NCBI GenBank assembly: GCA_029881495.1
Contig: JAOUMJ010000017.1
Span: 1 to 63,083 of the forward strand
Direction of reading: 5' to 3'
DNA from: Nitrospinota bacterium
Lineage (GTDB): Bacteria; Nitrospinota_A; UBA7883; JACRGQ01
Length of the DNA: 63,083 bases
The position numbers were made by a program, and so were the translations under genes. Positions within the stretch are counted from its first letter, which is position 1. The number at the start of each line of letters is the position of its first letter. The notes beneath the pieces were generated by a model, which worked only from the letters and a program-made list of their open reading frames with translations, was not told where the DNA came from and ran no database searches. This document shows, piece after piece, positions 6,450 through 22,302 of this stretch.

Positions 6450-6472
6450 CTTCAATTATTAGGGGTGAGTTA

Positions 6473-7864
6473 TTAAATCTCCACCGCTGAAATAACAATA
6501 GTCGTCGCGAACGTGCCGTTCCGCTCGATATAAATATTTCCGTCGCTGTCACATGGACACCATCCGGTATCGGTATGATTCTTCGCCGCAACTACCGCAT
6601 CAACTCTCGGCCCCTCCGCTCCGGCACTCCCTGCCCGAAGCATCAAATATGTATCGACAGCTCCCGGATTCCCGGTCAGCCGCGCCTTCACCGCCTTACA
6701 TCCTCTCGGTATCTTGCCGTTGGATTCGCTTTCCAGATTAATAGCCGCGTTCGCGGAAACCGATGTGGCATTGTAATTCGTAAGCGTCACCGGCTTGTCG
6801 AAATGGATAACGTTTTTACCGGGGGAATAATTCCCTGTTCCTATTTTTGAGCCAAGAATCAGCATTGGTCTGGATATATAAGTATTCAAACCGATTGCAC
6901 CAGTAACCGATATGCCGTATCTCAATGCCGTTGCTCCGACAGGTACTGTTATAGTTTTCTCGATCCAAACAAGGCTACCGGTTTGGGCCACATCGCTATA
7001 AGAGACAGTAGTTCCATCATCAATTACGATTTTGGCGGTGTTCCCGGCTTCCGTATATACAAAACAGCCGAATGTAATAGTCCGCCCTTGATATTTTTTA
7101 AGATGTGAAATTTCTGTGTAGTTATACGGCCCATAGAGCCACCTCTCGGACGCGGAGCTGTTTTTTATCCATGCCGCATACTGTCCCTTTCCTTTTGTCT
7201 GGTCGGTCAGTCTGTGTCGATACGATTCTAAGGTATCGCTTCGCCATCCATCAAATACCGGGACACCGCCGGTTTTTTTACCCGGCACCACTTCGTGAAG
7301 CGTGAGGTTGTCAATCGTGCCGGTAAATGCGGAACCTACGGATATCCCTGTATTGGCCCCAGCCGAACCCGTGGCGATGAATCGTCTAGACCAAGTTCCG
7401 TTTGCATTTATAACTTCACTTCCAGATACACCCTCGGCATTGAAGCGTATATAACCGCCAACATATCCAGACACATCAATTTTAATTTCATAAATAGCAT
7501 CTTTTGTAAGCGTCTTTGATTGAAGCACCGCGCCTGTGGCCGCGGTTCCCGCGACATTATTCGCGCCGTATGCCCACCCGGTGCCTAAAGCCCACCCTGT
7601 CGCATCCCCCGTGAACGTGGCATTACTGAAAATTTCGTTGGCATCACCGGGCGCTGAAACGCTTCCATCGACGGCGGAATACATCCCCGCCGAATTGCTA
7701 CACCCGCCGAAGTTAGAATTAGTAAGTAGATTTATTCGTGCGAGGGTGCTCAAGTAACCGATGTTCTCGTCGAGGAGGTCGAGGTTCTGGTCGTACTCCG
7801 TCTTGTACTCGCTGTCGAGAACGCTTTTCTTCAGCCCGTTCGTCGTTGTCGATTCAACTGTCAT
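6473..7864 (-). CDS. Virion appendage protein with carbohydrate-binding-like domains
   Basis: A 463-residue protein, the last gene of the island. The N-terminal ~70 residues include a phage-like segment (SEYKTEYDQNLDLLDENIGYLS). Two beta-rich stretches follow, around 75-180 and 210-340 (FSNATFTGDATGWALGTGW; ERWLYGPYNYTEISHLKKYQ), resembling CBM/galactose-binding modules. The C-terminus (SVSANAAINLESESNGKIPR onward) looks like another beta-sandwich. Such proteins usually form fibres or receptor-binding parts. The start is supported by AGGAG eight bases upstream. The specific function is an inference from composition and position. Confidence 0.7.
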   Translation of the reverse strand: MTVESTTTNGLKKSVLDSEYKTEYDQNLDLLDENIGYLSTLARINLLTNSNFGGCSNSAGMYSAVDGSVSAPGDANEIFSNATFTGDATGWALGTGWAYGANNVAGTAATGAVLQSKTLTKDAIYEIKIDVSGYVGGYIRFNAEGVSGSEVINANGTWSRRFIATGSAGANTGISVGSAFTGTIDNLTLHEVVPGKKTGGVPVFDGWRSDTLESYRHRLTDQTKGKGQYAAWIKNSSASERWLYGPYNYTEISHLKKYQGRTITFGCFVYTEAGNTAKIVIDDGTTVSYSDVAQTGSLVWIEKTITVPVGATALRYGISVTGAIGLNTYISRPMLILGSKIGTGNYSPGKNVIHFDKPVTLTNYNATSVSANAAINLESESNGKIPRGCKAVKARLTGNPGAVDTYLMLRAGSAGAEGPRVDAVVAAKNHTDTGWCPCDSDGNIYIERNGTFATTIVISAVEI

Positions 7865-7915
7865 TCTATATTCTCCTATCTATAGTAAGGGAGGGTTTCA
7901 AATCCTCCCGGGTAG

Positions 7916-9046
7916 TCACCCATAACTTGCTCCCGAATCGGTCCCCTTTCCGTGGCGATGACCGAAATAATGCCCGAATCCCCCCGCATTGGCGGGTCTG
8001 TGTGAAACAACCAGTTTTGGAAATACGCTGAACGGCGTGTCGACTGCCGATGGAACATTTAACCGCATCTGGATGTGCCGCGCCGCTCCTGGTGGTATGT
8101 TGCCGATCCTTCGCCCTTCGCTCACCGGTTCGCCGCCGACAGGAGCAAAAAAGGAATGCGCGTCGTCCGTAATGCCTGTACCAGAAACGCCGGAGCTTTT
8201 TACCTCCAGCCATTTTTCATCAACCATTTCCTGACCATTTGGGAGCGAACCTCCGCTGTACTCGCCGTCCGTCAAGGCAAGAGAGAGGTAAACATCTTTC
8301 ATCTCCAAAACTTCCGCTGTTCCGCTCTTCCGGTTCCAAAGATACAGCGTCATCTCGGCCGACATTTCGCCGCTTTTCAAAAGTCCGAAATATAGAGTGT
8401 CGATCTTCACACCAGAAGAGGTGTAAATTTCCACTTCCGGGACCAGGAGACGATATGAAGCAAGCAAATATTTTTGTATCGTCTGGAAATTGGAATAAAT
8501 ATTTGAGAAATTCTTAACCGATCTCTGCAGATTGGAATAGCGGGAAGAGGCCGTCTTTGTCATCGGCTGGAGCACGTCATATCTTGGAATTGTGGATTTC
8601 ACCAGATAGAGCCTCTCCATAAGCTCCATCTCCTTGATCCCAGTAAAGTACGCGCTGAAGGGGGTATACCAGTGGTCGATGATCTCCAGCTTGTAGTAGA
8701 GATAAGCCGTAGAATTTGAAAATGCATACTCAAACCACTGATCCGCGTTTGTCGATGTAGCTTCCGTCAACAGATTGTCCCACACGCTATCGTCGTTGGA
8801 GCCGTACAGCTTGAAATTCTTTATCAGCAACACCGACCCGCCTGTCGAATAGTCGGGGCGAAGGCGGAGTTTTTCTCCCCTCTTCGCGGTAGCAAGCTGA
8901 TACTTTATCCACTGCGGAGAGGTAGTCGCGCTCGCTTGCCACTTGGTTCCGGTGTCGTCATCGAAACCCTTGCTCGGCGTATTCGAGCCGTTTGTGCTGG
9001 AAGCTGTGGCCGTCCCCCCTATCAGGAAATCGATATCGTATGCCAT
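7916..9046 (-). CDS. Virion appendage protein with N-terminal F5/8 type C (discoidin) domain
   Basis: 376 residues. Residues ~10-145 read as a discoidin domain: GGTATASSTNGSNTPSKGFD, WQASATTSPQWIKYQL and YYKLEIIDHW are the expected cores for cell-surface carbohydrate binding. The C-terminal half is a separate structural domain (VEIYTSSGVKIDTLYFGLLK, WLEVKSSGVSGTGIT) of a kind seen in phage structural proteins with IPPGAARHIQMRL-like ends. It follows the upstream gene by a few bases (coupled), then there is a ~50-bp gap to the terminal gene. It probably contributes to attachment; I do not know the receptor. Confidence 0.7.
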   Translation of the reverse strand: MAYDIDFLIGGTATASSTNGSNTPSKGFDDDTGTKWQASATTSPQWIKYQLATAKRGEKLRLRPDYSTGGSVLLIKNFKLYGSNDDSVWDNLLTEATSTNADQWFEYAFSNSTAYLYYKLEIIDHWYTPFSAYFTGIKEMELMERLYLVKSTIPRYDVLQPMTKTASSRYSNLQRSVKNFSNIYSNFQTIQKYLLASYRLLVPEVEIYTSSGVKIDTLYFGLLKSGEMSAEMTLYLWNRKSGTAEVLEMKDVYLSLALTDGEYSGGSLPNGQEMVDEKWLEVKSSGVSGTGITDDAHSFFAPVGGEPVSEGRRIGNIPPGAARHIQMRLNVPSAVDTPFSVFPKLVVSHRPANAGGFGHYFGHRHGKGTDSGASYG

Positions 9047-9049
9047 CTC

Positions 9050-9826
9050 TTAAACCGTGTCCGCCTTGAAGGTGAATGAAAAATAGTTGTTCGCGTACCG
9101 CTGACTCGTTACGCTTACTACCCTTTTTATCCAGAGGCCATACACCGCTCCCGCCGCCAAGTTTCCAATTGAAAGGGCGTTCGCTTCCCCTGCGGCTGTG
9201 TAAAAGGTAAGGCCGGTCGGCGCGGTTGTCTCGTTTGCAATGCTCTGGATCGCGTTGCTGACCGGAAGCTCTATTGCTATCTCTACAGCATCGTCGGCAA
9301 ACGGAGTGTTTGTTTCGATCCACACCTTCATTGAATTCATGGCGGCGGCGGAATCGTTCTTTACCATCACGGCGCGGTACTCGGTGCGTCCGACAGCAGC
9401 TTCCCCCGACAAGACATTGTCGAAAAGATTTTCCGACATTGTGGCAAGCGCAATGCTATCGCTCTGATTGGATGCCGGAAGGCTCGCCGACGTTACGGTA
9501 ACTATCATGTATTTTGTCGCGGTGTCGGAATACAAGACGTAGGAACCGTCAGCAGAAACATCCACTCCGGGTCCGGCCGTATCTCCCGGTGCAGTGTAGG
9601 CCAGAAGTTTGCCGGTGAACGTAAATCCAAGCGTTGCCGAACCGGCCCCGCTTGGCGATGGCACATCGTTTATCACAACACCGGTCACGTTTGACGGCGC
9701 GCTTGCCGAAAGCGATTTTAATACCGTTCCGGAACGCTTCCCTCCAAGCGACGCGCTTGGATTCGATTGCGGGTCGCCGTCCGTGGCGACACCCGTTAAA
9801 TAAATATTCAAGTGATCTTCAGCCAT
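9050..9826 (-). CDS. Virion protein with an Ig-like domain shared with the decoration protein
   Basis: 258 residues, beta-rich, no signal peptide. Residues ~46-127 form a module whose pattern (NVTGV, FTFTGKLLAY, DGSYVL, SASLPASNQSDSI) also occurs in the putative decoration protein at 16238-16888. The C-terminal part (GRTEYRAVMVKNDSAAAMNS, IGNLAAGAVYGLWIKR) resembles domains of phage structural proteins that sit on neck or tail parts. Co-expressed with the neighbouring appendage genes. I do not recognise a named family for the whole protein. Confidence 0.65.
   Translation of the reverse strand: MAEDHLNIYLTGVATDGDPQSNPSASLGGKRSGTVLKSLSASAPSNVTGVVINDVPSPSGAGSATLGFTFTGKLLAYTAPGDTAGPGVDVSADGSYVLYSDTATKYMIVTVTSASLPASNQSDSIALATMSENLFDNVLSGEAAVGRTEYRAVMVKNDSAAAMNSMKVWIETNTPFADDAVEIAIELPVSNAIQSIANETTAPTGLTFYTAAGEANALSIGNLAAGAVYGLWIKRVVSVTSQRYANNYFSFTFKADTV
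9446..9691 (-). repeat. Shared Ig-like module, copy 2 (protein-level repeat)
   Basis: Encodes residues ~46-127 of the 258-residue appendage protein. It aligns by eye with the module at 16322-16546: NVTGV start, FT-TG-LL-Y core, DGSY-L, then TV-SASLP-QSDSI-L. Confidence 0.6.
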
Positions 9827-9869
9827 TATTTCCTCCTGTAAATGATCTGGCGGTGCTTGAAACCCGCCC

Positions 9870-10853
9870 CTACAATGTTGATTGCCGTTTTGCTTTAATC
9901 GTCATCCGCTCGTCCCTCGGCTGAACTCTGTAACCGATCTCCGTCACCTCGACTATTTCGGAAATACCCGCACGCGAAAAATTCAGTTTCAAACGGGAGC
10001 CGAGCTCAATGTATGGATTTATTCTTGAAAGCGAGAAACGTAATTCCGCATGGCCGACCTCAAGACCTGACGCCATCGAGGATTCCGAATACTCGAAATC
10101 AAATTCACCGCCGATGCCAACCGGATTGAATGGCTGACCGGGCGCGGGATCCTCAACCAGCCGATATACGATCTGCCCGTTGCGGTCGCCGTACCTTATC
10201 CTTTTCTGCCCGACAAGCGGATTTGATTTATCCTGCTCCCCTATCAGAATTGCGTCCGCCGCCATAAGCGCGTTTGGATAATTCCCTACGCAACCGCCGA
10301 CCGGTTCCAGCGGATAGAGCGTCGCATGTTCTATCGGGTCGAGCACCACATCAGCCGCGTAATCGGCGTGAATGGTGGAAACTATTGCAGGCTTCGTGTA
10401 GTCGCTCATCCGTCCCGCGACGCCCGTCACATCATCAATCCGTATCTCCACTGTCTCCGCGCCGTAGCTTTCCGTTATCCCGCCGGGGAACGGCACACCG
10501 GTCAAAAGGGGAATTTCCTTTTCACCGCTAACTGTATGCGCGACAAGGTAGATCCGTATCCTGTCGAAATCTCCCGGCACAAGGAGGTTCTGCCACCCCC
10601 CCGATGTTCGGGGATTCTTTTCGTCCGGCCATGCTATCGTGAGCGATGCGAATGTGCCGGAGAAGGAAGTTCTGCCGCTGAAACCGGCGATAACCCCGAG
10701 GTCGGTTACAGCCGCCCCGTCGTCCCAGACCGCTCTTAAGCGCTTCATTATCTTTTTCGGTTCAGGCAATGTTTGCGGAACGGAGCTTCGGGTCAGGGTC
10801 TCCACCACCTCTTTGTTGGCAATGACGGCGCTTACCGGAAAAAGGGAGATCAT
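9870..10853 (-). CDS. Putative baseplate/hub-like virion protein
   Basis: 327 residues. The C-terminal stretch (INPYIELGSRLKLNFSRAG, EIVEVTEIGYRVQPRDERM) resembles the closing part of tail hub proteins of the gpD/gp44 type, where a surface-normal vector line is followed by a strand-rich end. The N-terminal half (VTDLGVIAGFSGRTSFSG, VEIRIDDVTGVAGRMSDYTK) reads like a beta-barrel domain. Start at 10853 with AGGAG nine bases upstream; its stop almost touches the next gene. Hub assignment is tentative; another tail adaptor is possible. Confidence 0.5.
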   Translation of the reverse strand: MISLFPVSAVIANKEVVETLTRSSVPQTLPEPKKIMKRLRAVWDDGAAVTDLGVIAGFSGRTSFSGTFASLTIAWPDEKNPRTSGGWQNLLVPGDFDRIRIYLVAHTVSGEKEIPLLTGVPFPGGITESYGAETVEIRIDDVTGVAGRMSDYTKPAIVSTIHADYAADVVLDPIEHATLYPLEPVGGCVGNYPNALMAADAILIGEQDKSNPLVGQKRIRYGDRNGQIVYRLVEDPAPGQPFNPVGIGGEFDFEYSESSMASGLEVGHAELRFSLSRINPYIELGSRLKLNFSRAGISEIVEVTEIGYRVQPRDERMTIKAKRQSTL

Positions 10854-10855
10854 TA

Positions 10856-11197
10856 TTAAATTTCTCCTGTTACGGCAAGGCTGATTTTCACCGCATAGCA
10901 GTTATCGGATTTCCGCCTGCTCTCGAAGGAACTTACAAGACATGCATACTCAGCAAGCGGTTCCGAATAGCCGACAGGCGCGCCATTTTGAAAATATCGG
11001 TAGAGAACAAAGAGCTTGTCCCTGTCCAGCTCCGTCTCCAGCGCAAACGAAAGGTCCGAAGCCGAAGAACCGACCATCCTTGAATCGGTCCCTTCCAGCG
11101 TCTCAATAGAGACCACCCTGTTTTTCAGGCGCAACGCCTCGAACCCCGGAACCTCAAGAAAAAGTCCCGCATCGTTCAAACTGAAAAGTGTCGCCAT
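10856..11197 (-). CDS. Small virion protein of unknown role (tail adaptor-like)
   Basis: 113 residues, no membrane segment. Begins with a beta-rich MATLFSLNDAGLFLEVPGFE and ends with YAVKISLAVTGEI, a layout seen in small tail-completion or adaptor proteins. It lies two bases upstream of the hub-like gene on the same transcript. I do not recognise the family. Confidence 0.6.
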   Translation of the reverse strand: MATLFSLNDAGLFLEVPGFEALRLKNRVVSIETLEGTDSRMVGSSASDLSFALETELDRDKLFVLYRYFQNGAPVGYSEPLAEYACLVSSFESRRKSDNCYAVKISLAVTGEI

Positions 11198-11206
11198 AAC
11201 ATCCCC

Positions 11207-12916
11207 CTACAAATAAAAGAATTCAAGATTTTTGCATTCAAGCTTCACCGGGTTCGCCCTGAATGAAACTCCCCCCGGCGAATAATCGATATCGTGAATC
11301 TTCCCTTGGGCGTAGAAGGAAATCTTTGACAGCTTCGGGAATATCCGTTCCGGGTTAACCTCTTCGTTGAAAACAAAAGGATAGGCGGCGGAAAAATCTG
11401 CCGCGATATTTCTTATGACATCCGACCCGCTGTTTATTTCAAAGTAGCCCGGAAAAACTCCGTATTCCCCTGATGGTGATGGGGGCGGCGTCACGTCGGC
11501 TCCGCCTGAATCAAAACATCTCATCAGGAGGTTTCCGATATTATCGAAATCGTTTTCATCTCCCGACATCGGAACATTGAACGCCATATCGGTTAGCAAC
11601 CCGGAGGCGAAACCGATTGGATGTCCTTCGGCGTCCCTTCTCGGCTTGCTCCTGAACAATCCAAACCGCCCGTTATGAGCGGAAGGGAGAGAAGTTCTCA
11701 AACTTGAAAAATCAGCGCTCCCTGGGGAAACATAAAGAAGGGAAAAATGGAGATCAAGATTTACTTCGCATACCGATGAATACGCCGGCATCCCTGGTTC
11801 CGATGTATACCAACTCGTGTTTATTGTTGAACCGTCCAGATAATCGGGGTATGGGGCCTTGCTGAACGTAAGTATCATGCAGGCCGGGAGTTGAAGGCCG
11901 GTTCCATAGCCATCCACGTCAATGTAATGATCGTAAGTATCGGAGGTAAAAAGATTCACAGACATGTTCAGGTCCTTACCGGAACAGAAAAGCGGAATAC
12001 TCACCTCAGAAGAGACTGCAACGGGAGGGGATATTATTATCGGGCTGTCCGACTTTTGAAAATATATCGGCCTTGGAAATTTCACCGATGCGTAATCATC
12101 CCTCGCCACAGTGAAACCCTCCTCCAGCACCGCGGTCTCAACAGCAAGCGAGCCGCCATTGACAGCGATGCCTGCCGGGATTCCAAACGGGAAACCTTCT
12201 TTTACATAGATATCGGAAAGCTTTACGTCCCACCTGTTAATTTGAAAACTTCCGTTATCCCAAACTTCGTAGTCGAGCGGATCGGTTTTAATTTTGCTGA
12301 ATATGAAATATCCCGGATGATCGTCCTCCTCATTCGGATGCCCGCCGCCGTTTTCAATATCGGCCGTCGAAGGGGAGTAACCGCTCCAACTCTCGTTCCT
12401 TGACGCACAGCCTGTTTTCGGTTTCTGTCCGCATCCATACCCTGCTACCCACGGCTCCCCGTCCCGTGGTAGAAGACAGTTCTTCTCATCCTTGAGATCA
12501 TGAATGACTGCAACACAATCACCGACCGAATATGAGTGCTCCTGCGGAAGCAGTGCGCAACTGGCATCTTGGAAATATGCGAGGCCGTACGCGATTTTCG
12601 ATATCACCTTTTTTCTGTCGAGGGCATATGCGCCCCCCATCCTCTCCCCCCATAGATACATTGCTGAAGCTGTTGCCGGCTTACTCTTTGCCAGTTCACT
12701 AGCGGAAGCCCATCTTTTGGAGGTTCTGTATGGGAGAAGCCTGGAGTCGCATGGAGAGTATCTGCCGTCCGGCACGAAGAGCCGGTAATGTTCTCCCGCT
12801 ACAAAATTGAAATCGGCAACGGCGCTCTGTACCGGATAACTGTTTCCGAGGTCATCAGCAACCATAAACCACCCTTCCATGCCATCAATCGGCATAGTAA
12901 CCTTCGCCCTCCCCAT
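11207..12916 (-). CDS. Large virion protein of unknown family
   Basis: 569 residues and the largest gene of the island. It has no visible transmembrane helix and no tape-measure-like coiled coil. The middle contains several Cys-bearing stretches (CALLPQEHSYSVGDCVAVIH, CGQKPKTGCASRNESW) and Asp/Gly-rich loops (YDHYIDVDGYGTG) suggesting an extracellular beta-structured protein. Its start overlaps the stop of the 80-residue gene by one base. By position it sits where a Mu-like phage would carry sheath and tail genes, but it shows no sheath motif. Function unknown. Confidence 0.65.
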   Translation of the reverse strand: MGRAKVTMPIDGMEGWFMVADDLGNSYPVQSAVADFNFVAGEHYRLFVPDGRYSPCDSRLLPYRTSKRWASASELAKSKPATASAMYLWGERMGGAYALDRKKVISKIAYGLAYFQDASCALLPQEHSYSVGDCVAVIHDLKDEKNCLLPRDGEPWVAGYGCGQKPKTGCASRNESWSGYSPSTADIENGGGHPNEEDDHPGYFIFSKIKTDPLDYEVWDNGSFQINRWDVKLSDIYVKEGFPFGIPAGIAVNGGSLAVETAVLEEGFTVARDDYASVKFPRPIYFQKSDSPIIISPPVAVSSEVSIPLFCSGKDLNMSVNLFTSDTYDHYIDVDGYGTGLQLPACMILTFSKAPYPDYLDGSTINTSWYTSEPGMPAYSSVCEVNLDLHFSLLYVSPGSADFSSLRTSLPSAHNGRFGLFRSKPRRDAEGHPIGFASGLLTDMAFNVPMSGDENDFDNIGNLLMRCFDSGGADVTPPPSPSGEYGVFPGYFEINSGSDVIRNIAADFSAAYPFVFNEEVNPERIFPKLSKISFYAQGKIHDIDYSPGGVSFRANPVKLECKNLEFFYL

Positions 12917-13158
12917 CAGCCGTTTAACACCTTCAGAATATTCTCCTGCCTGGCCCGAATGATTATCTCTTCAAGTACGCGGGATACGAGTTCCGCTATC
13001 GCTCCGTCGGTATTTTCAACCTTGACTGAAATTGGCTGTGACTTCTCACGGGAGAGTACGGCGATGAGCGCATCTATCTTCGCGATCAATTCCTTGATTG
13101 AAGGTGGCGCCTCCGCTGGAACGCCATTTGGGTCGATGGTTCGATTTGTGTCAGCCAT
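12916..13158 (-). CDS. Small virion-operon protein of unknown role
   Basis: 80 residues. A proline-rich start (DPNGVPAEAPPSIKELIAKI) leads into two helices (IKELIAKIDALIAVLSREK; AIAELVSRVLEEIIIRARQE). It may be a small helical connector or chaperone. It overlaps the following 569-residue gene by one base, which supports expression. Family not recognised. Confidence 0.55.
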   Translation of the reverse strand: MADTNRTIDPNGVPAEAPPSIKELIAKIDALIAVLSREKSQPISVKVENTDGAIAELVSRVLEEIIIRARQENILKVLNG

Positions 13159-13172
13159 TTCTCTCCCCTCCT

Positions 13173-14150
13173 TTACGCGCCTGCGACGATCGGCCCGGCA
13201 ACCGGAAGAAGGAGGTATTCGCCCGCCATAAGTTCACCCGGCTGATATGATAAGTTGTTTTCAACAAACGCATAGAAAATTTCCTTTCTTGTCCCGGCTG
13301 AATCGGGCATGAATTCAAAAAGCCTTACGCTCCCTTCAATGCGCCTTAGCAGATCCGACTGATCGCCGGAAAGTGATATTTGAATACGACCTTCCTGAAT
13401 CTTCGACTGCGCAAGCCTGGAAAACGAATAGTCAAACTCCCTCCTTGAATAGGGAGGGGTGATTGAAAACATATCGACAGGAGCCACCACCGGTTCGCAG
13501 TACGTTATATAGATATTTTTCGATACTCCTCCGGTATGGATAAGGGGGAGCTCTTCCCGGAAGATGACTTTTCCCTCATGCGGAGAGAGGTCAAAGCTCG
13601 GCGCAAACGAATACTCCGGAAAAAATGATATTTCGCTTTCGCTTATCGGCCCGGACACATCAGAAAGTTTCAATATGGCGATCTCAACCTTTCCCACGTC
13701 TACAAATGGCGGACCTCCCGCAGCGCCTCTCGAATCGGAAAAATTCGCCCCCTCCGTACCGTCAACCAGTGAGATGCTTCCAAGAGAGTTGGCGACGACC
13801 GAAACCTTTTTCACGCTCCCTGATACCGGCCTGGTTATCGTGATATCGGAGGATGCGTTCACCGCGACCTCCGCACCTGCGATCCAAAGCGAACCTTCGG
13901 AGACATCCACCGCATCCGAAATGCCTGAGGAGGCTCCTCTTATCCGGCAGCCGTTTCGCAGACCGTCGGGGCGCACCACTGGGCGGCGGTCGACCCCGTT
14001 CTCATCCTGTTCGCAGAGTGAAAAACTTGCAGCGCCGCAGACAAAGGTTCTGCTGTCGCCGGTACCGGTCATCAGTTGCGGGCCGGCCTGAGAAAATGAA
14101 TCCTCGATCTTCAACTGCATCCCGGAGGTTGTAGGCAATTTAACGCTCAT
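13173..14150 (-). CDS. Virion protein of unknown family following the DUF1834 gene
   Basis: 325 residues, beta-rich. Segments such as SEGSLWIAGAEVAVNASSD, GKVEIAILKLSDVSGPISES and NNLSYQPGELMAGEYLLLPV suggest stacked beta-domains of a tail or baseplate protein. In phage Mu this slot leads to gp38 and the sheath L, but no sheath or tube signature is visible. The start has AAGGAAAAT directly before ATG. Function unknown. Confidence 0.6.
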   Translation of the reverse strand: MSVKLPTTSGMQLKIEDSFSQAGPQLMTGTGDSRTFVCGAASFSLCEQDENGVDRRPVVRPDGLRNGCRIRGASSGISDAVDVSEGSLWIAGAEVAVNASSDITITRPVSGSVKKVSVVANSLGSISLVDGTEGANFSDSRGAAGGPPFVDVGKVEIAILKLSDVSGPISESEISFFPEYSFAPSFDLSPHEGKVIFREELPLIHTGGVSKNIYITYCEPVVAPVDMFSITPPYSRREFDYSFSRLAQSKIQEGRIQISLSGDQSDLLRRIEGSVRLFEFMPDSAGTRKEIFYAFVENNLSYQPGELMAGEYLLLPVAGPIVAGA

Positions 14151-14165
14151 ATTTTCCTTTTCCGT

Positions 14166-14594
14166 TCACTCAAAAATTTCCAGTTCCCATTCCTGCCGAA
14201 AGACCGTCTGTGTATCCGATTTATCAAACACGCTTTCCCTGACAAACCGGATCGGCTGAATGTTCAAGCCTGCGTCCGACCCCTGGAGAATATTTCGCGC
14301 GGTATCAAGTGTGTTGTATATCCCCCCAGTGACAACGTCACCCCTTACTGCGGAAGAGGGGGATCGGAGGTTTCTCGCCACGATGTAGAGATGAAACGAG
14401 AACAGATGTCTTTTCTTCATCGCGCTTCGGACACCGGTGGTACTTCCATTAAAAACCACAAACACTTTCGGCGATGTCACCACCTCTTTTAAAAACTCAT
14501 CCGCCGACGGTTTTCTTCCGAATACCGAGGCTTTCATCCCGCCGCTCTCTATAGCGGTTACTATCGCGTCTTCAAGCTGGTTTGCCGTGTACAT
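14166..14594 (-). CDS. Mu gp37-like protein (DUF1834)
   Basis: 142 residues. Opens with YTANQLEDAIVTAIE and continues PKVFVVFNGSTTG and RHLFSFHLYIVARNLRS, ending IRFVRESVFDKSDTQTVFR with EWELEIFE, the layout of the DUF1834 neck/tail-terminator-like family next to DUF1320 in Mu-like prophages. It directly follows the DUF1320 gene (3-bp gap). Role inferred: head-to-tail joining. Confidence 0.72.
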   Translation of the reverse strand: MYTANQLEDAIVTAIESGGMKASVFGRKPSADEFLKEVVTSPKVFVVFNGSTTGVRSAMKKRHLFSFHLYIVARNLRSPSSAVRGDVVTGGIYNTLDTARNILQGSDAGLNIQPIRFVRESVFDKSDTQTVFRQEWELEIFE

Positions 14595-14597
14595 CCG

Positions 14598-15029
14598 TTA
14601 CCACTCCGACAGTTTTGTTCGCGAAAATTTGCGCTCTTCCGCCGTATATCCGACGCTTGATGCTAATACGCCCGAAGGTGAAGGTTTGTCGACCACCCCT
14701 TCAAGAGCGACCTTGCGTTCACCGACCAGGCTGAAAAAACTAATAGCCATTTTGTAGGCATCCTTCCACGCCGGGCCTTCAACCGAACGATAGAGGTGAA
14801 GTTTGTAAATGGCGATAGACGCCGAATACTCCTTTACTATCCTCGGGACCGGGGAGAGAGGCACCTGATACACAGGGGATATGAATCCGTTTATAAGTGC
14901 GTCCGCGTCTTCGATCGCCGCGCTTACAAGAGCGGTATCGACGACACCGCTTCCGCTCCTGTCCGTCAGCTGTATCAGCAAAGCCTCGTCGACCCTCTCC
15001 TTTAAATCCGCCTCTGTTGAATATGCCAT
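14598..15029 (-). CDS. Mu gp36-like head-completion protein (DUF1320)
   Basis: 143 residues. MAYSTEADLKERVDEALLIQ, SAAIEDADALINGFISPVY and VPRIVKEYSASIAIYKLHLY form the DUF1320 pattern of Mu gp36, an adaptor at the head vertex. It follows the capsid gene and precedes the DUF1834 gene, exactly as in Mu-like phages. Confidence 0.82.
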   Translation of the reverse strand: MAYSTEADLKERVDEALLIQLTDRSGSGVVDTALVSAAIEDADALINGFISPVYQVPLSPVPRIVKEYSASIAIYKLHLYRSVEGPAWKDAYKMAISFFSLVGERKVALEGVVDKPSPSGVLASSVGYTAEERKFSRTKLSEW

Positions 15030-15085
15030 TTTCGTTTCCCTTTTTTTGTGGGGCGGACCGAAACGGCCCGCCCCTGACCGATTGG

Positions 15086-16078
15086 TTACGCGCCGCCGGT
15101 GGAACCGAAGATGAGGTGCGGTAGACCGTAACCCGAATTGCCCCGGTAATCGACGCCGTATACATACTCCTTGCGCATGAAAACGTTTTCGTCCGCCAGC
15201 TGGTCAAGAGCGACAAACTGCGGCTCCCTCCTGGTCTGGAATATGAACGGTTTCGCCGCATGCCTGAGGTCCGCAAGGAACCAGTAGGTAGGATTCGCGG
15301 CAAGTTCCGGCGCGACTATTACGTCGGCTGAATCCTTCCAGATATTCGTCTCGCCGTTCGCCGATTTATCTGCGCGCAATATCTGCCTCGCAAGCCCTTC
15401 CATCTGCGGCGGAACGATGAGGAAATTCGGAAGTATCCTGAGCGGACGCCCTTCGTCATTCACGAGGCTCATCATCTGCGCCCTCGCATCCTGATAGGTC
15501 GTCGCGCTCAGCACGTCAGCCGAGGTATTGCTCCATGCCGCGAGCTTGCCGTTCGGATGCGACGCGGAGAAAAAGTTCTGGCCATCAAAACATAGCGAGG
15601 TGAAACCTTTCACCAGGAGATCAAAGATAAGTTCGTCCGGATGCTGTTTTGCCGATTCGGCGAGCTGTTCTATCATCGGCCTGTAAAGGCCTATCGCGTC
15701 GTCTTCGATGTCGTTCCTGTCCACCGAAACGGTAGCTTCAAAATCGCGGTTCTTTATCACAAAACCGTCTACCGAAAGATCCTTGACCACTCTTTCCCCT
15801 ATCCACTCGCGAAGACCGGGAAACTGACCGAGCCACTTGTACTCTTCCTGCCTTGCCGAAGAGGGGACAACAACCGCCAGGTTACGAAGCGAAGTCGCCG
15901 CGCCGTCGTATGCTCTCTGGAAAACAGTCTTAAATCCTGTGTATGCCGCTTCAAGCGTCGCCTGATTGATCACTACGCCAAGCAACGCCACATTCCTAAG
16001 CGATAGAGGCGCGCTATCGTCTCCGCAAATAACCACGGCAATGACCGCCGAAATGAAACTTGATATTCTCAAAAACAC
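15086..16078 (-). CDS. Major capsid protein, Mu gpT type
   Basis: 330 residues. After the N-terminus the protein matches gpT-like heads: NQATLEAAYTGFKTVFQRAY, DRNDIEDDAIGLYRP, FDGQNFFSASHP and ILPNFLIVPPQMEGLARQI. The GTG at 16078 has AGGAG seven bases upstream but would add a ~35-residue hydrophobic leader that is odd for a capsid. Homologues usually begin at about the NQATLEAAY block, so a start at GTG 15973 is possible although it lacks a good ribosome binding site. The capsid identity is solid; the start is open. Confidence 0.88.
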   Translation of the reverse strand: MFLRISSFISAVIAVVICGDDSAPLSLRNVALLGVVINQATLEAAYTGFKTVFQRAYDGAATSLRNLAVVVPSSARQEEYKWLGQFPGLREWIGERVVKDLSVDGFVIKNRDFEATVSVDRNDIEDDAIGLYRPMIEQLAESAKQHPDELIFDLLVKGFTSLCFDGQNFFSASHPNGKLAAWSNTSADVLSATTYQDARAQMMSLVNDEGRPLRILPNFLIVPPQMEGLARQILRADKSANGETNIWKDSADVIVAPELAANPTYWFLADLRHAAKPFIFQTRREPQFVALDQLADENVFMRKEYVYGVDYRGNSGYGLPHLIFGSTGGA

Positions 16079-16114
16079 TCTTTTACTCCTTTTAATAGAT
16101 AGATTTTTTATTGC

Positions 16115-16150
16115 CCCCCCTCATGGAAGCGATGACTTCCATGAGGGGGG
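16115..16150 (-). other. Perfect 15-bp hairpin between decoration and capsid genes
   Basis: Six C plus TCATGGAAG (16115-16129) pairs fully with CTTCCATGA plus six G (16136-16150) around a 6-nt loop. On the minus strand it is followed by an A-rich tract rather than a T-tract, so it is more likely an mRNA processing or stability element upstream of the capsid gene than a terminator. The rest of the 159-bp gap shows nothing else. Confidence 0.7.
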
Positions 16151-16237
16151 ATGCGCATATCCGGCGCGAGGCGACAGGGAAGTGGTCCCGTAAAAAGGGG
16201 GTGATAACAGAACGGGACATAAAGGCAGGCATTCCCC

Positions 16238-16888
16238 TCAGCTCCTCGCCGCCGTTGAAATATCAATGAAACACGAGCTTGCCGAAACAACCTCGATTAT
16301 CCTTCCGACCTTCTGGCTCCTCAGCTGGATACTGTCGCTTTGATCGGTTCCCGGAAGAGACGCCGAAACTACCGTGGCGATAACGTTCGAACCATCGGTA
16401 GCTGTCAGTGTGTACGAGCCGTCGGTACCGACATTTACCGCAGTGCCGCCGCCATAGGAAAGAAGCGTACCGGTCGCCGTGAACGCCAGCGTCCTTGTTC
16501 CGCCGGTCGATAACGCCGTCCTCGCAAGTGTGACCCCTGTCACGTTCGCAGGCTGGGCTACTATCCCCTTACCTACCGAATTGTCGTCGACGACAAACGC
16601 GTCCTTCAGCATCTCCGACTGCGTGATCGCGGAAGTTGACACTTCGAATATCCCGGTGAGGTACCCTTCGCACGTCACATCGCCATTGGCCCCGGCGCTG
16701 TTATCGGCGAACCTGCGGGCTACACCGAGGAATGTCTCGGATGAGCTGTCGCTCGACGGAACCAGATACCCCGCCGAATTTGCACTGACAAGACTGCCTG
16801 CAAATATTTTCACCGCGGCGGCTACCGGAAGCTCGAATATTATCCCCTGCTTCCTCTCTGTCTTTTTGTCCTTTGTTAAAACTGCCAT
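16238..16888 (-). CDS. Putative capsid decoration protein with inserted Ig-like module
   Basis: 216 residues from ATG 16888, which has AAGGAG eight bases upstream (a TTG six bases earlier is less likely). Residues ~10-100 (KQGIIFELPVAAAVKIFAGS, SETFLGVARRFADNSAGANG) resemble the small decoration/cement proteins found before the capsid gene in Mu-like phages. Residues ~115-189 are an extra Ig-like module shared with the appendage protein at 9050-9826. The C-terminus (GRIIEVVSASSCFIDISTAA) resumes the base domain. Its role on the head surface is inferred. Confidence 0.7.
   Translation of the reverse strand: MAVLTKDKKTERKQGIIFELPVAAAVKIFAGSLVSANSAGYLVPSSDSSSETFLGVARRFADNSAGANGDVTCEGYLTGIFEVSTSAITQSEMLKDAFVVDDNSVGKGIVAQPANVTGVTLARTALSTGGTRTLAFTATGTLLSYGGGTAVNVGTDGSYTLTATDGSNVIATVVSASLPGTDQSDSIQLRSQKVGRIIEVVSASSCFIDISTAARS
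16322..16546 (-). repeat. Shared Ig-like module, copy 1 (protein-level repeat)
   Basis: Encodes residues ~115-189 of the decoration protein: NVTGV, FTATGTLLSY, DGSYTL, VVSASLPGTDQSDSI. It is the counterpart of 9446-9691. Confidence 0.6.
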
Positions 16889-16900
16889 TACCAACTCTCC

Positions 16901-17452
16901 TTAACTGTTATAGGTGTCGAATACTTCCCTGGAGATACCAAGGAGCGAGTTTATTTTTTCCTGAACTTCGCCTATCGCCTCGACAGCCGAACCGGAATTT
17001 TTCGCCGAGACTATTTCCCCCATCCTGACGATCGACCTGCTGTTGGCGAGGAATCGGCTGAATCCTTCAGGATCGGAAGAAGCGTAGCTATATGCCCACT
17101 CCTTCTGAGCCGGAAGAATTTTTCCCGACTCGATAGCGGAACCGATCTTTTCCTTCAGCTCCTTCTCTTTCATTGATGTGAGCTCTTCCCTAAGTCGCGC
17201 CAGCTCTTCGATGGTTGAGGCTGTTTCCTCTATCGTCCCGCCAGTCGATTCAATCGCCGTTTTTGCCGCCTCGAGAACTTCCTCCTCCCCGGCTTCTTCC
17301 GGCATATCGAGAGTGGCTTTCAAATTCGCAATACCCTCCCGCGCGGAATGAAGCATCTTTATGCTTTCAACCGCTTTGGATAAAACATCCGGCGTTTCCG
17401 TTTCCTCAGCAAGGCCCAGCGCCTCCTTGAGGCCTATCAACAATTCATGCAT
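16901..17452 (-). CDS. Nested scaffold protein (gpZ-like), internal start in the protease gene
   Basis: An in-frame ATG at 17452 is preceded by GGAGG (17462-17458) with five-base spacing, the best ribosome binding site in this part of the island. The product would be 183 residues starting MHELLIGLKEALGL, mostly helical. It matches the known Mu arrangement in which the scaffold is translated from inside the protease gene. Inferred from sequence only. Confidence 0.65.
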   Translation of the reverse strand: MHELLIGLKEALGLAEETETPDVLSKAVESIKMLHSAREGIANLKATLDMPEEAGEEEVLEAAKTAIESTGGTIEETASTIEELARLREELTSMKEKELKEKIGSAIESGKILPAQKEWAYSYASSDPEGFSRFLANSRSIVRMGEIVSAKNSGSAVEAIGEVQEKINSLLGISREVFDTYNS

Positions 17453-17887
17453 TTTTTCCTCCATTAGATTTTGGTTTAAAAGTGGCTTCATCGACCCGAT
17501 ATTCGGGTGATTCGTAAGACCGAAACTGACTACCCTTTCTATGTGCAGTCTCCCGCCAACAGAATGGGCGGGATTGAAGACAAAAACAGGAGACAGGTAG
17601 CGGAACCCTTTTTGCCTTAGGGACTCCTCCCCCCTTTGTGTCCATTCGATTTTTCCATACAGCCCGTCTGGAGTTGTTTCAAGACTATTCAATGCAACCC
17701 ACCCAGCCGCTTCGGCCTCCGAGGCGGTAAACGATTCATGCCCGAAGTCGACCGGGATGTCGCGCCCCTCCCTTTTCGCTCCTTTGAGGATTCTCTCAAG
17801 AGCCTCCGCGTCTATAACCTGCAGTCCCGCTTCGTGCGCAAAACTCCCCGCGGGAACGAGCTGTACCTTTTTGTTTATCAAATTCAT
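16901..17887 (-). CDS. Mu gpI-like head maturation protease with C-terminal scaffold
   Basis: 328 residues. The protease part covers ~1-145: DIPVDFGHESFTASEAEAAG, GLYGKIEWTQRGEESLRQKG, GFRYLSPVFVFNPAHSVGGR and VSFGLTNHPNIG are the gpI-type blocks. The remainder is a helical scaffold (TIEELARLREELTSMKEKEL) with an EWAYSYASSDPEGFSRFL end. It overlaps the portal stop (ATGA). A nested start at 17452 allows the scaffold to be made alone, as with I/Z in phage Mu. No MuF (gp30) gene separates it from the portal. Confidence 0.85.
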   Translation of the reverse strand: MNLINKKVQLVPAGSFAHEAGLQVIDAEALERILKGAKREGRDIPVDFGHESFTASEAEAAGWVALNSLETTPDGLYGKIEWTQRGEESLRQKGFRYLSPVFVFNPAHSVGGRLHIERVVSFGLTNHPNIGSMKPLLNQNLMEEKMHELLIGLKEALGLAEETETPDVLSKAVESIKMLHSAREGIANLKATLDMPEEAGEEEVLEAAKTAIESTGGTIEETASTIEELARLREELTSMKEKELKEKIGSAIESGKILPAQKEWAYSYASSDPEGFSRFLANSRSIVRMGEIVSAKNSGSAVEAIGEVQEKINSLLGISREVFDTYNS

Positions 17888-19134
17888 CGCGCCGCCCCCT
17901 TCCCGTTTTCACTGCGGAGGACTTCTTCCACGCTTGAAGGGGGGAGTATCCCGGCAGACTCGTATAGCTGTGAGACAGGAAGCGGTAGCCCCATTTCGAA
18001 GAGCTTTCTCAGGTCATCAAGCTTTTTTGTTTTTGATTCGCGGTTCTCGAAATCAGAAACAAAACGTGGATAGACTTTCTGCTCCCCGAAATTCGCCTTG
18101 ATGAGGGGGACAATGAAATCCCTTGTCAAAGTCTCATCAAGCATCGCGCAATCGAAACGGAGTATGTCCATCCTCACCCTGTCGTGAACATTGCCAAGTG
18201 AGTATGAACCGCTCTGCCCGTGCTCCGTCGTAAGCGTCTGCCCCAGCACCCGCTTGCTCTTCTGACGATTGAAAAACTCGACTGCGTTCTGAAAAAGATC
18301 GTGACTGCCGGCTAGCCGCGATTCTATGAATTCTATTGTTGTATCCTCGCTGATAATCGCCGCCGCGTCCGAGCCGAGATCCTGCACAGCTTTTTTCAGG
18401 ATATTCCGCGAACTTTCATCGGCAGACGGCTTGAATTTGCCAAGTCTTAACGGAATTCCGTACACATCCATGAAAGACATCCAGTCTTTTATGGAGTAAT
18501 TGGTAAAAAGAAAGTACCACGCAAGGCCGCGGTACAGCCCCCCCTGCAAAAGACCGCTCCCCGCCGAACGGTTTATGTGAAAAATGAATTTATCTCGCGG
18601 AAGCTTCTCCCCTTCAGACTCTCCGTATGGGAGATAGAGCGGAAACTCAAGTATCTTTCCGCCCCCCTTCATGTCGAAAAAGGTAAAGAGCGTCTGCGGA
18701 CAAAACTTCAGTTCGCTCACTATCAGGTTTCCTTCGCGAACCTCAAAGACCATCTCAGTAACCGAAAAGCCTTTTCCTATCGATGAAAGGATGTCGTGAA
18801 TGGCAAGAGTTTTTCCGCTTATCCCCTCCCACACCTCGGAGATGAAATCGCAATGCTTCCTCGCCTCATCGCTATCAGAGGCTGGAACAATCCGCCTTGA
18901 TGTGGAAGCTGTCGCGGTTATCCTCGTCTGCATGACGGTAGCAAGATGGATATCCTTCTCCTCCATTTCGCCGAAAAGCTCCATCGCGTTTCTGCAGTAA
19001 CCCTGGTCAAGCTCCCTCAACAGGGAGGCAAGCTTTTCAGGTGTGAGGTTCTTTCCCGGGTAAGAGCGGAATCCCGCGGGCGAGACAGCCTCAACCAGCT
19101 TGACCCCAGGCGCAAATTTTCCAGAATCGTTCAT
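17884..19134 (-). CDS. Portal protein, Mu gp29 type (DUF935)
   Basis: About 416 residues from ATG 19134; a reading frame open to 19155 would add seven residues but has no ribosome binding site. Matches DUF935 portals: LTPEKLASLLRELDQGYCRN, MEEKDIHLATVMQTRITATA, YRGLAWYFLFTNYSIKDWMS, MDVYGIPLRLGKFK and GQTLTTEHGQSGSYSLGNVH. The portal forms the DNA entry ring of the head. Immediately downstream of the large terminase and overlapping the protease gene. Confidence 0.9.
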   Translation of the reverse strand: MNDSGKFAPGVKLVEAVSPAGFRSYPGKNLTPEKLASLLRELDQGYCRNAMELFGEMEEKDIHLATVMQTRITATASTSRRIVPASDSDEARKHCDFISEVWEGISGKTLAIHDILSSIGKGFSVTEMVFEVREGNLIVSELKFCPQTLFTFFDMKGGGKILEFPLYLPYGESEGEKLPRDKFIFHINRSAGSGLLQGGLYRGLAWYFLFTNYSIKDWMSFMDVYGIPLRLGKFKPSADESSRNILKKAVQDLGSDAAAIISEDTTIEFIESRLAGSHDLFQNAVEFFNRQKSKRVLGQTLTTEHGQSGSYSLGNVHDRVRMDILRFDCAMLDETLTRDFIVPLIKANFGEQKVYPRFVSDFENRESKTKKLDDLRKLFEMGLPLPVSQLYESAGILPPSSVEEVLRSENGKGAAR

Positions 19135-19138
19135 ACCT

Positions 19139-20650
19139 TTACCATCTCCATCCATTTGAAATTTGTTTTTCAGCTCCGTATCGAGGCCTTCGGCTCAATG
19201 TTTCGTAAACTATCTGTTCCTCCCTTCCCTCTTCCATACCAGCTAGGCACGCGAGGAAAAGGGCCCATGCCGCGTCGGCATGATGCTCCGAAGAGGATGC
19301 CACCGTGAAAATGACGTTCCCCGCGCCGGTAATTTTCTGCTCAATCGACATAAGCTGTGATATGAGAAACCTGTCGAGCGGCAGGACGAGCCTGTCATCC
19401 ATGAGATTCACGCGAAAGAGGTTGATCATTTTCGCTTTCGATTCCGCCGTGAAATGTACAGGGATGATCCTCTCTCCGAAACTGTCTTTCAGTCTCTCGG
19501 AAAGGTGGAGCCCTATTCCTGTCGAATCGATAGCCACCCTCCTTACTCCGTGGCTAACCGCCTCGCATAGAACCTTCTCCTGCGAAGTGAAATCGACATT
19601 CGCAAGCCGCACAAGCATCCTCGCTTCCATACGGCCGTTTTTTGTTTTGTCGAAAATGAAAAGCGCCGATTCGTCCTTTTTTCTTCCGACGTCATACCCG
19701 GCGAAAGCTGAACCTTTTATCCGGCACTCCAGCCACTGCCAGTCCGACATGGCGGGAACTCCGTTTATGGTTGCGAACATCAGATCGGCATCGTCGGTGA
19801 CGCCGTAATCCGGCGTACAACATCCGGTTATCGAGTCGACCGGGAACGCCGAAGAGAGCGAATCGAGAAATTCAAGCTCCGACTCCTGTCGGAACGCGGC
19901 CTCCGGCATCGAACCATAAATAAGGCGCATAGAAGGGGTCCCGAAACTTTCTACCCTTTCGGCTGTGGAAAGCTTCGGGGCCTCCAACTTTGCCCGCGCC
20001 ACATCCACGCAAAGCGCGCTCGATTCCCACCATGGGACTTCGAAGAGGGAAAAGCCGGGATACTTCCCCCTTGAGATCGGATAAAAAACCGAATCGGCGC
20101 CAAGCGGGGTGCTCTCTATAACTAGAATGTCGTTCTCGCTTCGCGATGTGGAGTGAAGAGCGCCTTCATATATCTTCGCCGCGTCACGGCAGTGGGGGAG
20201 TTCGGAGATACCAATGTCTCCCCCCTTCCCTCTTGGAGGACGGGAAGCAAGCGACCTTAGCGCGGACCTTCCGCCGCCCGAATCCTCGAAAAGAAGTTCG
20301 GTGCGCGATCGCGCCACCCGCTTTTTCCTGAATCTGCGCGGTATCGAGTCGTAAATGGCGTCCGCATATTCTATCTTCCCTTTTGCCTCCTCAAGATTCA
20401 TGCTGATGAAGGTGCCTGAATAGTTTCTCTTCAGCTGTGAGCGGATGAACATTTTGAGCGTCAACGCCCAACTCCCCCCGACGCGCCTGCTCTTGAGGAT
20501 ATTTATGAATTTCGACTCGCATCGCAAAAACTCCCTCTGCCAGTCATCCAGCCTTATGCTTCTGCCGTTTGCCTTCACAAGGAGTTCCGCGAAATTCTCC
20601 GGCTTTATCAGCCAGGCTAAGAATTCCTTATTGTCGGCGCGGTCAAACAT
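19139..20650 (-). CDS. Terminase large subunit, Mu gp28 type
   Basis: 503 residues. The ATPase domain has a degenerate Walker A (SRRVGGSWALTLKMF). The nuclease domain shows acidic blocks in AGYDVGRKKDESALFIFDK, VRRVAIDSTGIGLHLSERL and SSEHHADAAWALFLACLAG. It packages DNA into the capsid. It starts within the end of the small-terminase gene (8-base overlap). No truncation seen. Confidence 0.9.
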   Translation of the reverse strand: MFDRADNKEFLAWLIKPENFAELLVKANGRSIRLDDWQREFLRCESKFINILKSRRVGGSWALTLKMFIRSQLKRNYSGTFISMNLEEAKGKIEYADAIYDSIPRRFRKKRVARSRTELLFEDSGGGRSALRSLASRPPRGKGGDIGISELPHCRDAAKIYEGALHSTSRSENDILVIESTPLGADSVFYPISRGKYPGFSLFEVPWWESSALCVDVARAKLEAPKLSTAERVESFGTPSMRLIYGSMPEAAFRQESELEFLDSLSSAFPVDSITGCCTPDYGVTDDADLMFATINGVPAMSDWQWLECRIKGSAFAGYDVGRKKDESALFIFDKTKNGRMEARMLVRLANVDFTSQEKVLCEAVSHGVRRVAIDSTGIGLHLSERLKDSFGERIIPVHFTAESKAKMINLFRVNLMDDRLVLPLDRFLISQLMSIEQKITGAGNVIFTVASSSEHHADAAWALFLACLAGMEEGREEQIVYETLSRRPRYGAEKQISNGWRW

Positions 20651-21290
20651 CAGCTACACCAGCCTTGTTATTTTGGAATTGCTCGTAAAGGGCCTGCATC
20701 TGCTCAAGTTCAGCGAGGTCGTCCTTCAAACCCTCCTCGGCGACAAGTTTTTCAAATTTTTGTATCAGCGACTTTTCGCATTTTGCATAAGCCTTCTTTA
20801 ATGAAGCGTCATTTGCTAACTCCATTCTGACCAGCTGGATGATCTTCGCCGCAAGCGCGCCCGACAGCTTCTCCCCCGTGGTAGATTTGAGGCGCATCTT
20901 CTTGTAGTCGTTCGTAACCTTTATTACGTCCTTTATATCCCAGTCGCCGAAAGCATCTTCCTCGATGGAATACCTGTTGAGACAATCGACATAAACTGCG
21001 TGTTCAAGCACCGCTTGAATATGCGATACATCTTCACCAACTTTTATCTTTTCCAGAAATTCCCTTACTATCTGCGCGCCGCTATTCTTGAAAAGAAGGT
21101 TCCGGCTCACCTTCTCCCCTTTCCCCTGCATGTATTCTGTAATCTGCTTTTGGGGAATCGTCCGGTTCAGTGACTTCCTGATGGAGTTTTGAATTTGAAT
21201 CGCATTTTTTCCGTCTTCGATGCCGCGCGAAATTATTTCCTTCGCTTCAGGTGAGATCTCTGCGGCGGTCGGCCTTGCACGTTTTTTCAT
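20643..21290 (-). CDS. Terminase small subunit, Mu gp27-like (DUF3486)
   Basis: 215 residues, all-helical. The start (RARPTAAEISPEAKEIISRG) resembles the DNA-binding N-terminus of DUF3486 proteins, and the C-terminal acidic helices (EEGLKDDLAELEQMQALYEQ) suit oligomerisation. Its position directly before the large terminase is the strongest evidence. Confidence 0.72.
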   Translation of the reverse strand: MKKRARPTAAEISPEAKEIISRGIEDGKNAIQIQNSIRKSLNRTIPQKQITEYMQGKGEKVSRNLLFKNSGAQIVREFLEKIKVGEDVSHIQAVLEHAVYVDCLNRYSIEEDAFGDWDIKDVIKVTNDYKKMRLKSTTGEKLSGALAAKIIQLVRMELANDASLKKAYAKCEKSLIQKFEKLVAEEGLKDDLAELEQMQALYEQFQNNKAGVADV

Positions 21291-21292
21291 TT

Positions 21293-21880
21293 TCAGGAAA
21301 CTCCCGCCTCGCTAACGCCGTTTTCAATTACGTCGATCCCCTTCGCGGTGATGCGCGCCATGAAGACCTGCTCTCCGCCGACGCTGTATGTATTGAGCGT
21401 TAAGAGGGATTTCCTGTCGAGGTACCAGAGATGGAAGCGGATCTCTTCAAGTAGCAGATTGGAAAATCCCGATTCCCTGAATTCCTCCAGAATTTCCGTA
21501 TCCTCATTAAAATACTCCTGGAACGAGTTGCAGTACGAAAGTATCTTTCTGCGAAGCTCCTTTTGATATTCAAGCTTTGTGTACTGCCCCGAAGAGGCCT
21601 CCACACCCCGAACGGTCACCGCGCCGTCCAATACGTCGATCCCCGCCGGAGTTATCTGTATGGAGGATGTTGACCCGTTTTTTCTCAGCAAGACAAGTTC
21701 CTTCTGCTCAAGGTAGTTGAAGAGTTCCTGCACATGCTCAAGGGAGAGGGCTGGAAACCTTGTCTTGAGATTGGAGGCAATCGCCCTGTCGGTCTGCGGA
21801 TGAAGATAAAGCTCTCTTGCCAGCTGAAGGAGATGTTTTCTCAGTACCCTTTTCTTTGCGGCGTTCAGAGGCACGTTCAT
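21293..21880 (-). CDS. Tandemly duplicated winged-helix phage protein
   Basis: 195 residues made of two similar ~85-residue units (about 13-94 and 109-194). Each is a winged-helix pattern ending in a signature: ITPAGIDVLDGAVTVRGVE and ITAKGIDVIENGVSEAGVS. Mu-like prophages usually carry a single ~100-residue unit of this type (VpaChn25_0724-like, from memory) between the DUF2730 and DUF3486 genes. The duplication is unusual. Function unknown; DNA binding in packaging or regulation is plausible. Confidence 0.75.
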   Translation of the reverse strand: MNVPLNAAKKRVLRKHLLQLARELYLHPQTDRAIASNLKTRFPALSLEHVQELFNYLEQKELVLLRKNGSTSSIQITPAGIDVLDGAVTVRGVEASSGQYTKLEYQKELRRKILSYCNSFQEYFNEDTEILEEFRESGFSNLLLEEIRFHLWYLDRKSLLTLNTYSVGGEQVFMARITAKGIDVIENGVSEAGVS

Positions 21881-22302
21881 TATTGTTTAATCCCTTCCAT
21901 GGTTAATCTTTCGTAAATGGAATCTATCTTGTGATTAATGTTCGCGGCGAACGCGCCAAACTCCTGCCTGCTTGCGAACGACTGCGCGTGCGATCTCGAA
22001 AGTTTTTCTATCCTTTTCTCCATTTCATCCATGTTCATATCGCTCTGGCTTTTGATATTTCTGATCACCTTTATGAACTCCCTCCTTGCCCTTATGGAAA
22101 GATTGCGGATTTCGCGCCCCCTGCGTGCGTCCTTATGCGCAATCTGCTTCTTGAGTTCCTTTGCTTTCGCCTGCAACTCCTCAAAATTTGCGTCCATCTT
22201 CCTGTCCATGGACGTCAGGGTTCGCTTCCCAAGGAACAAAAGGAGCGACCAGCCGATGCTGATGAACAAAACCAGTAATTGCGCAACAAGGCTTTCAAAC
22301 AT
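21880..22302 (-). CDS. DUF2730-like membrane/coiled-coil phage protein
   Basis: 140 residues from ATG 22302, supported by GGAAGG six bases upstream; a TTG at 22323 is possible but weaker. An N-terminal transmembrane helix (LVAQLLVLFISIGWSLLLF) is followed by a long charged coiled coil. This matches the small Mu gp25/DUF2730 type that opens the late head operon in Mu-like prophages. The first gene of the island's operon; its role is unknown. Confidence 0.7.
   Translation of the reverse strand: MFESLVAQLLVLFISIGWSLLLFLGKRTLTSMDRKMDANFEELQAKAKELKKQIAHKDARRGREIRNLSIRARREFIKVIRNIKSQSDMNMDEMEKRIEKLSRSHAQSFASRQEFGAFAANINHKIDSIYERLTMEGIKQ

Follow-up and report, generated by a model that had tools for sequence, protein, structure and literature searches.

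A Mu-type head gene island in a Nitrospinota-like genome as a probable domesticated, gene transfer agent-like particle cluster

We analyzed a 63,083-nucleotide stretch of DNA from a Nitrospinota bacterium (the window, which is the whole of contig JAOUMJ010000017.1, C17, of the 2.8-Mb draft genome GCA_029881495.1, here G000) and focused on an island of 18 consecutive minus-strand open reading frames (ORFs) that runs from position 22323 down to 6473 and includes head genes of the phage Mu type. The sequence points to a domesticated cluster for particle production that has been passed down vertically and most likely acts as a gene transfer agent (GTA), and we put the probability of this at roughly two in three. 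With somewhat less confidence, we lean toward an independently domesticated family of Mu-type-head GTAs that would have originated early in this bacterial phylum close to Nitrospinota, co-diversified with it, and undergone lineage-specific tail reduction (one family with a 209-amino-acid tape measure, another lacking both tube and tape measure). We base the main interpretation on Mu-type head and packaging genes that are all intact, a reduced noncontractile tail module, long descent with the host at a locus that is fixed within two clades, and copies beside which no replication, integration, or repressor gene was seen.

The island occupies a shared locus across genera

None of the 18 ORFs contains an internal stop or a frameshift, and many neighboring ORFs overlap or sit a few bases apart. 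On one side, 37 bp separate the 15.9-kb cluster from the end of glyA (5186 to 6436, plus strand), and on the other it abuts tRNA-Leu (22710 to 22792, plus strand, found with ARAGORN) and tig (22873 to 24213, plus strand). A first-pass annotation of this DNA had described a one-stranded, overlapping, frameshift-free gene set between ordinary host genes and had proposed looking for it at the glyA/tig locus of related genomes. The description held, and the island was found there. G001, which belongs to the same family but to a different genus, carries the full set of 18 genes in unchanged order at the equivalent locus, with glyA on one side and tRNA-Leu, tig, clpP, clpX, and lon on the other (~17 kb including lysis genes). 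In G006, from a third genus, the cluster end nearest the terminase large subunit gene (TerL) adjoins tig, and the glyA contig stops 200 bp past glyA. Host proteins of these three genomes are ~70% identical.

The relatives are metagenome-assembled genomes that their depositors labeled Nitrospirae or Nitrospinota. Judged by capsid or TerL, 12 of the 24 phylum genomes examined carry the cluster, and these represent 12 of 18 genera. In G013 and G017, from two genera of another family, it lies at a different common locus, where six collinear downstream genes are 50 to 76% identical. Host genes stand on both sides of the cluster in G000, G001, G011, and G013.

Element and host trees largely agree

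Trees built from seven concatenated head genes (the element) and from five host genes both contained (G000,(G001,G006)), a group of G003, G004, and G005, and (G011,G018). Five of eight splits were common to the two trees, a number reached by none of 2000 label shuffles, and the host topology was not rejected under the element data (approximately unbiased [AU] test, p = 0.073). The TerL of the cluster forms a separate clade, 26 to 34% identical to phages. Its identity is 44 to 62% inside the phylum and at most 34% in viral contigs, with the exception of L277 (IMGVR_UViG_3300036760_001543). This 15-kb contig, catalogued as a virus, is a copy of the cluster of the kind found in host family f2, and thus clusters of this sort may be entered as viruses in virus catalogues. 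Major capsid protein identity is 59 to 79% within the phylum and does not exceed 57% in IMG/VR. In codon usage, the head genes resemble host genes (r = 0.79 to 0.89) more than they resemble a prophage on contig C5 of the same genome (0.69). In a pairwise codon model of G000 versus G001, neutrality was rejected for every gene tested (twice the log-likelihood difference, 48 to 240), in line with the selection on the gene set that had been suspected at first pass.

Relatives keep lysis genes at a place where the window has a probable fossil

In G001 and G006, a holin-like gene, an SLT endolysin gene, and two spanin-like genes lie between g18, the most upstream gene of the island, and tig. Endolysin and spanin homologues occupy the corresponding point in G003 and G005. 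In the window, ~390 bp are left at this place. A tblastn comparison with the spanin C-termini of G001 and G006 located a probable fossil of a spanin-like C-terminus there (22334 to 22423, minus strand). It is on the correct strand immediately upstream of g18 and scores 22.7 bits, which was reached by 0 of 200 shuffles. With the G001 endolysin as query, no homologue was found in the G000 genome. Because of the ~390-bp gap, the spanin remnant, and the endolysin result, we believe that the holin/endolysin/spanin cassette was most likely deleted from the window's genome, with the fossil as its scar. For release, the window's copy may depend on lysis genes located elsewhere; alternatively, its decay may have begun.

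Points against domestication and the phage alternatives

Several points weigh against a domesticated, working cluster, for which packaging and transfer are predicted. The chief reason to doubt that the window's copy is active is the probable lysis cassette deletion. The TerL of G001 has a single in-frame TAG (G001:C10 29914 to 29916, L104), which falls between the terminase ATPase and nuclease halves of an otherwise intact cluster. Loci differ again in G003, G004, and G005, and presence is patchy, with the cluster absent from both genomes of genus g3 and from three of the four of genus g6. The agreement of the trees is incomplete; the element topology was rejected by the host data (p = 0.003), and the conflicts are located among families f4 and f5 and within G003 to G005, where the data are partial. 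Synonymous sites were saturated in the codon fit, and constraint alone would also fit a live phage; therefore, the case for domestication rests on the shared loci and the tree agreement.

The deleted cassette with its probable fossil, the nonsense codon in G001, and the patchy presence would suit an ordinary degraded prophage, in which a phage with a Mu-type head has shed its early, lysis, and other genes and is now degenerating at its locus. We consider this unlikely, as every one of the 18 genes is intact and under constraint between genera whose host proteins differ at ~30% of residues, the loci are shared, the trees are congruent, and copies in other genera have no early or integration genes seen beside them. 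The first-pass annotation had held that tail, lysis, and transposase genes attached to the island in relatives would mark such a prophage. A reduced tail and the relatives' lysis genes are indeed attached, whereas neither a transposase nor an integrase was seen next to any of the copies.

Patchy distribution, the differing loci of G003, G004, and G005, and structural genes under constraint could also come from a live temperate phage or capsid-forming satellite of narrow host range, whose co-divergence with hosts would be only apparent. This we regard as quite improbable. The same locus is used in G000, G001, and G006, and another in both G013 and G017, and IMG/VR yielded a single member of the TerL clade, namely the f2-type cluster. 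Pfam and PHROG searches of positions 6473 to 22323 found no integrase, transposase, primase, or repressor and no satellite replication or regulation genes, which is not the gene content of a capsid-forming phage-inducible chromosomal island. MuA/MuB-type transposition genes and an early region were absent from the island and were not seen in the flanks of relatives, unlike in a complete Mu-like prophage. No integrase, transposase, primase, replication, or repressor genes were seen beside the copies in the visible flanks, whose ORFs were read without a family search of every flank. A Mu-transpos_C search of the whole G000 genome gave 0 matches, but its control gave no match either. Repeats of at least 10 bp were not found at the island ends.

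Head and packaging genes are of the Mu type

Pfam and PHROG matches (all on the minus strand, as are the tail genes below) comprised a DUF2730-like gene, g17, TerL, portal, I protease, decoration protein, gpT capsid, gp36, and gp37. The large subunit TerL (19139 to 20650) matched Terminase_6C (E = 4e-7) and PHROG terminases, and its catalytic motifs are invariant in seven relatives. It is followed by the portal protein of the Mu gp29 type (17884 to 19155; Portal_Mu, E = 9e-89), a head maturation protease/scaffold of the Mu I type (16901 to 17887; Mu-like_Pro, E = 8e-49), a head decoration-type virion protein (16238 to 16894; phrog_1731, E = 2e-28), and the major capsid protein of the Mu gpT type (15086 to 16078; Mu-like_gpT, E = 1e-97). 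The gp36 head-tail adaptor (14598 to 15029; Phage_Mu_Gp36, E = 1e-25; phrog_195) and the gp37/DUF1834 protein (14166 to 14594; Phage_Mu_Gp37, E = 5e-12) complete the head set. On the upstream side lie g16 (20643 to 21290), a protein in the small-terminase position that is kept in position and sequence in relatives and has no family match, and g17 (21293 to 21880), a winged-helix protein of the packaging module in a gp27-type position (phrog_436, E = 1e-17; 35 to 66% identity in relatives). The small membrane protein g18 (21880 to 22323, probable ATG start at 22302) is kept in seven other phylum genomes. The families and the 18 intact ORFs agree with the Mu order from DUF2730 to DUF1834 reported at first pass; however, the DUF2730 label of g18 is a weak PHROG match (phrog_462, E = 3e-7) with no match in Pfam.

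The tail is probably reduced and noncontractile

Eight genes lie downstream of gp37. The first of these, g08 (13173 to 14150), probably encodes the tail tube. It matched phrog_30644 and, by hhalign (99.9%), a gene of L213, an IMG/VR contig of a siphophage with a Mu-type head. That L213 gene is in the tail-tube place, between gp37 and a chaperone plus a 908-amino-acid tape measure, and Marinobacter phage PS3 has a homologue in the same gene position. Because g08 is homologous to both tube-position genes, a tail tube is probably present.

The tape-measure place of the island is occupied by g07 and g06. The former (12916 to 13158; 80 amino acids) was assigned to the chaperone/tape-measure position, and its C-terminus is conserved in five genomes; calling it a mini tape measure would be a guess. 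The latter (11207 to 12916; 569 amino acids) is a family-specific tail-module protein, conserved in five genomes of the family, for which no viral relatives were found. Beyond them are g05 (10856 to 11197), a small tail-tip candidate with a weak profile match (P = 0.007) to the L213 gene after the tape measure, and g04 (9870 to 10853), a hub/baseplate-like candidate conserved in five genomes. The structural protein g03 (9050 to 9826) matched phrog_13135 (E = 8e-15), and its residues 44 to 127 match decoration-protein C-termini. In cross-comparisons with relatives, g03 and the decoration proteins (16238 to 16894 in the window) have a common domain of ~80 residues with 36 to 48% identity. Receptor binding is likely for g02 (7916 to 9046), which carries an F5/8 type C domain (PF00754, E = 9e-11), and g01 (6473 to 7864) is tail-fibre-like, with a variable C-terminus and only its first 34 to 62 residues conserved in relatives.

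Comparisons of g04 with the L213 hub candidate, of g06 with the f4 hub, and of g08 with the f4 tube-like gene were not significant. Searches of IMG/VR with g04 and g06 returned no relatives, and PDB profile searches with g08, g04, and g06 gave no credible match. AlphaFold models of g08 and g06 (mean predicted local distance difference test scores, 36 and 41) were too poor for use.

Across families, heads are conserved while tails differ and are reduced. Family f4 has a 351-amino-acid gene product with a weak tail match and a 209-amino-acid protein with a weak tape-measure match; the tape measure of the GTA known as RcGTA is similarly short. In family f2, gp37 is followed by a small ORF, a gene of ~132 amino acids, and an 881-amino-acid hub-like gene; tube and tape measure are both lacking. 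The f2 tube/chaperone/tape-measure place holds at most one ORF of 55 to 59 amino acids (G011:C3 82850 to 83122; G018:C345 646 to 836; L277 8236 to 8435).

These results change the argument from missing parts on which the first-pass annotation had built its GTA-like or domesticated particle. MuF, sheath, a recognizable tape measure, transposase, and lysis genes were indeed not found within the island. The tail tube had been counted as missing but is probably present, the lysis genes absent here lie directly upstream in relatives, and an adhesion-type domain occurs in g02 only, not in all eight downstream proteins. The proposal itself is favored by the shared locus, the phylum-wide spread, the largely congruent trees, and the constraint.

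Reduced, lineage-specific tail parts would accord with a capsid retained for another use, such as an antagonistic particle or a compartment. We consider such a use very unlikely, since the terminase motor and nuclease motifs, the portal, and the head-tail adaptors are conserved, none of which a shell or tail-only weapon would need, and the relatives' lysis genes point to particle release. If the island instead encodes a GTA, its terminase would load chromosomal DNA by headful into Mu-type heads, and a short tail with variable fibre tips would dock on related cells. Release would use the cassette that relatives keep directly upstream.

Comparison with known GTAs and phages

The GTA definition lists six features (PMC9662315). 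Three can be read from sequence here: particle proteins of tailed-phage (caudoviricete) ancestry, given the head, packaging, and connector matches and the tube homologue; full endogenization, given the host genes on both sides and flanks in which no integration or replication genes were seen; and mostly vertical inheritance with co-diversification, with some conflict left among f4/f5 and G003 to G005. The others, i.e., particles that mostly contain random host DNA, that are too small for the whole GTA genome, and that deliver DNA to cells (PMC9662315), are experimental. Therefore, we call the cluster GTA-like and not a proven GTA.

Like RcGTA and the other alphaproteobacterial type I GTAs (rhodogtaviriformids), the island is a compact set of structural genes that lacks genes for replication and integration and is vertically inherited. 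The genes of such a GTA can be distributed among several loci (PMC9662315). Unlike RcGTA, the cluster has Mu-type head genes (gpT, gp29, I, gp36, and gp37), belongs to an unrelated phylum, and has a predicted role in gene transfer. The FpGTA of Faecalibacterium, for which packaging, particle, and proteomic data exist, has two operons ~125 kb apart and a very short tail or none, and its lysis genes can be in a separate operon and can be missing in some strains (PMC12946183). Compared by description only, both have a compact head/packaging operon outside Alphaproteobacteria, but Mu-like heads are not mentioned in the FpGTA paper (PMC12946183). Siphophages with Mu-type heads (L213, FP_Mushu, and B3/JBD30-like phages) have the identical head gene order, and L213 also has the tail-tube homologue. 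However, those genomes are ~36 to 40 kb, the L213 tape measure is full length, and the TerL studied here is a separate clade. The cluster is best read as independent of the known GTAs.

Few GTAs have a known genetic basis. A 2022 classification recognized three independently exapted groups (PMC9662315), and a 2026 paper called the Faecalibacterium element one of very few GTAs outside Alphaproteobacteria (PMC12946183). Our literature search, which left preprints and most subscription papers outside, found nothing linking GTAs with Nitrospinota, and its Nitrospina matches were unrelated by title. If our interpretation is true, another class of phage head has been domesticated, in a Mu-type lineage that co-diverged with a largely uncultured phylum. 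TerL, capsid, and g17 would serve as marker genes for spotting the cluster in particle DNA.

Other prophages and flanking features

A second Mu-type capsid gene on contig C5 of G000 was considered as part of the cluster and rejected, being 33% identical and in a separate prophage (~20 to 51 kb, L173-L174) with a methyltransferase and a 559-amino-acid tape-measure-like gene. A related head set in family f3 (G012:C79, ~61 to 80 kb, L116-L117) has a 47% identical capsid, an unrelated terminase, a 661-amino-acid tape-measure-like gene, and a repressor-like gene, and looks like an ordinary prophage. We also rejected tRNA-Leu as an attachment site because it adjoins tig in island-free relatives too and there is neither an integrase nor an end repeat. 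No empty glyA-tig site turned up when one was sought; the two genes are not adjacent in the island-free relatives examined. At the glyA side, an inverted repeat (6405 to 6475; RNA fold, −23 kcal/mol; z, −2.3) is a possible shared terminator of the convergent glyA and island ends.

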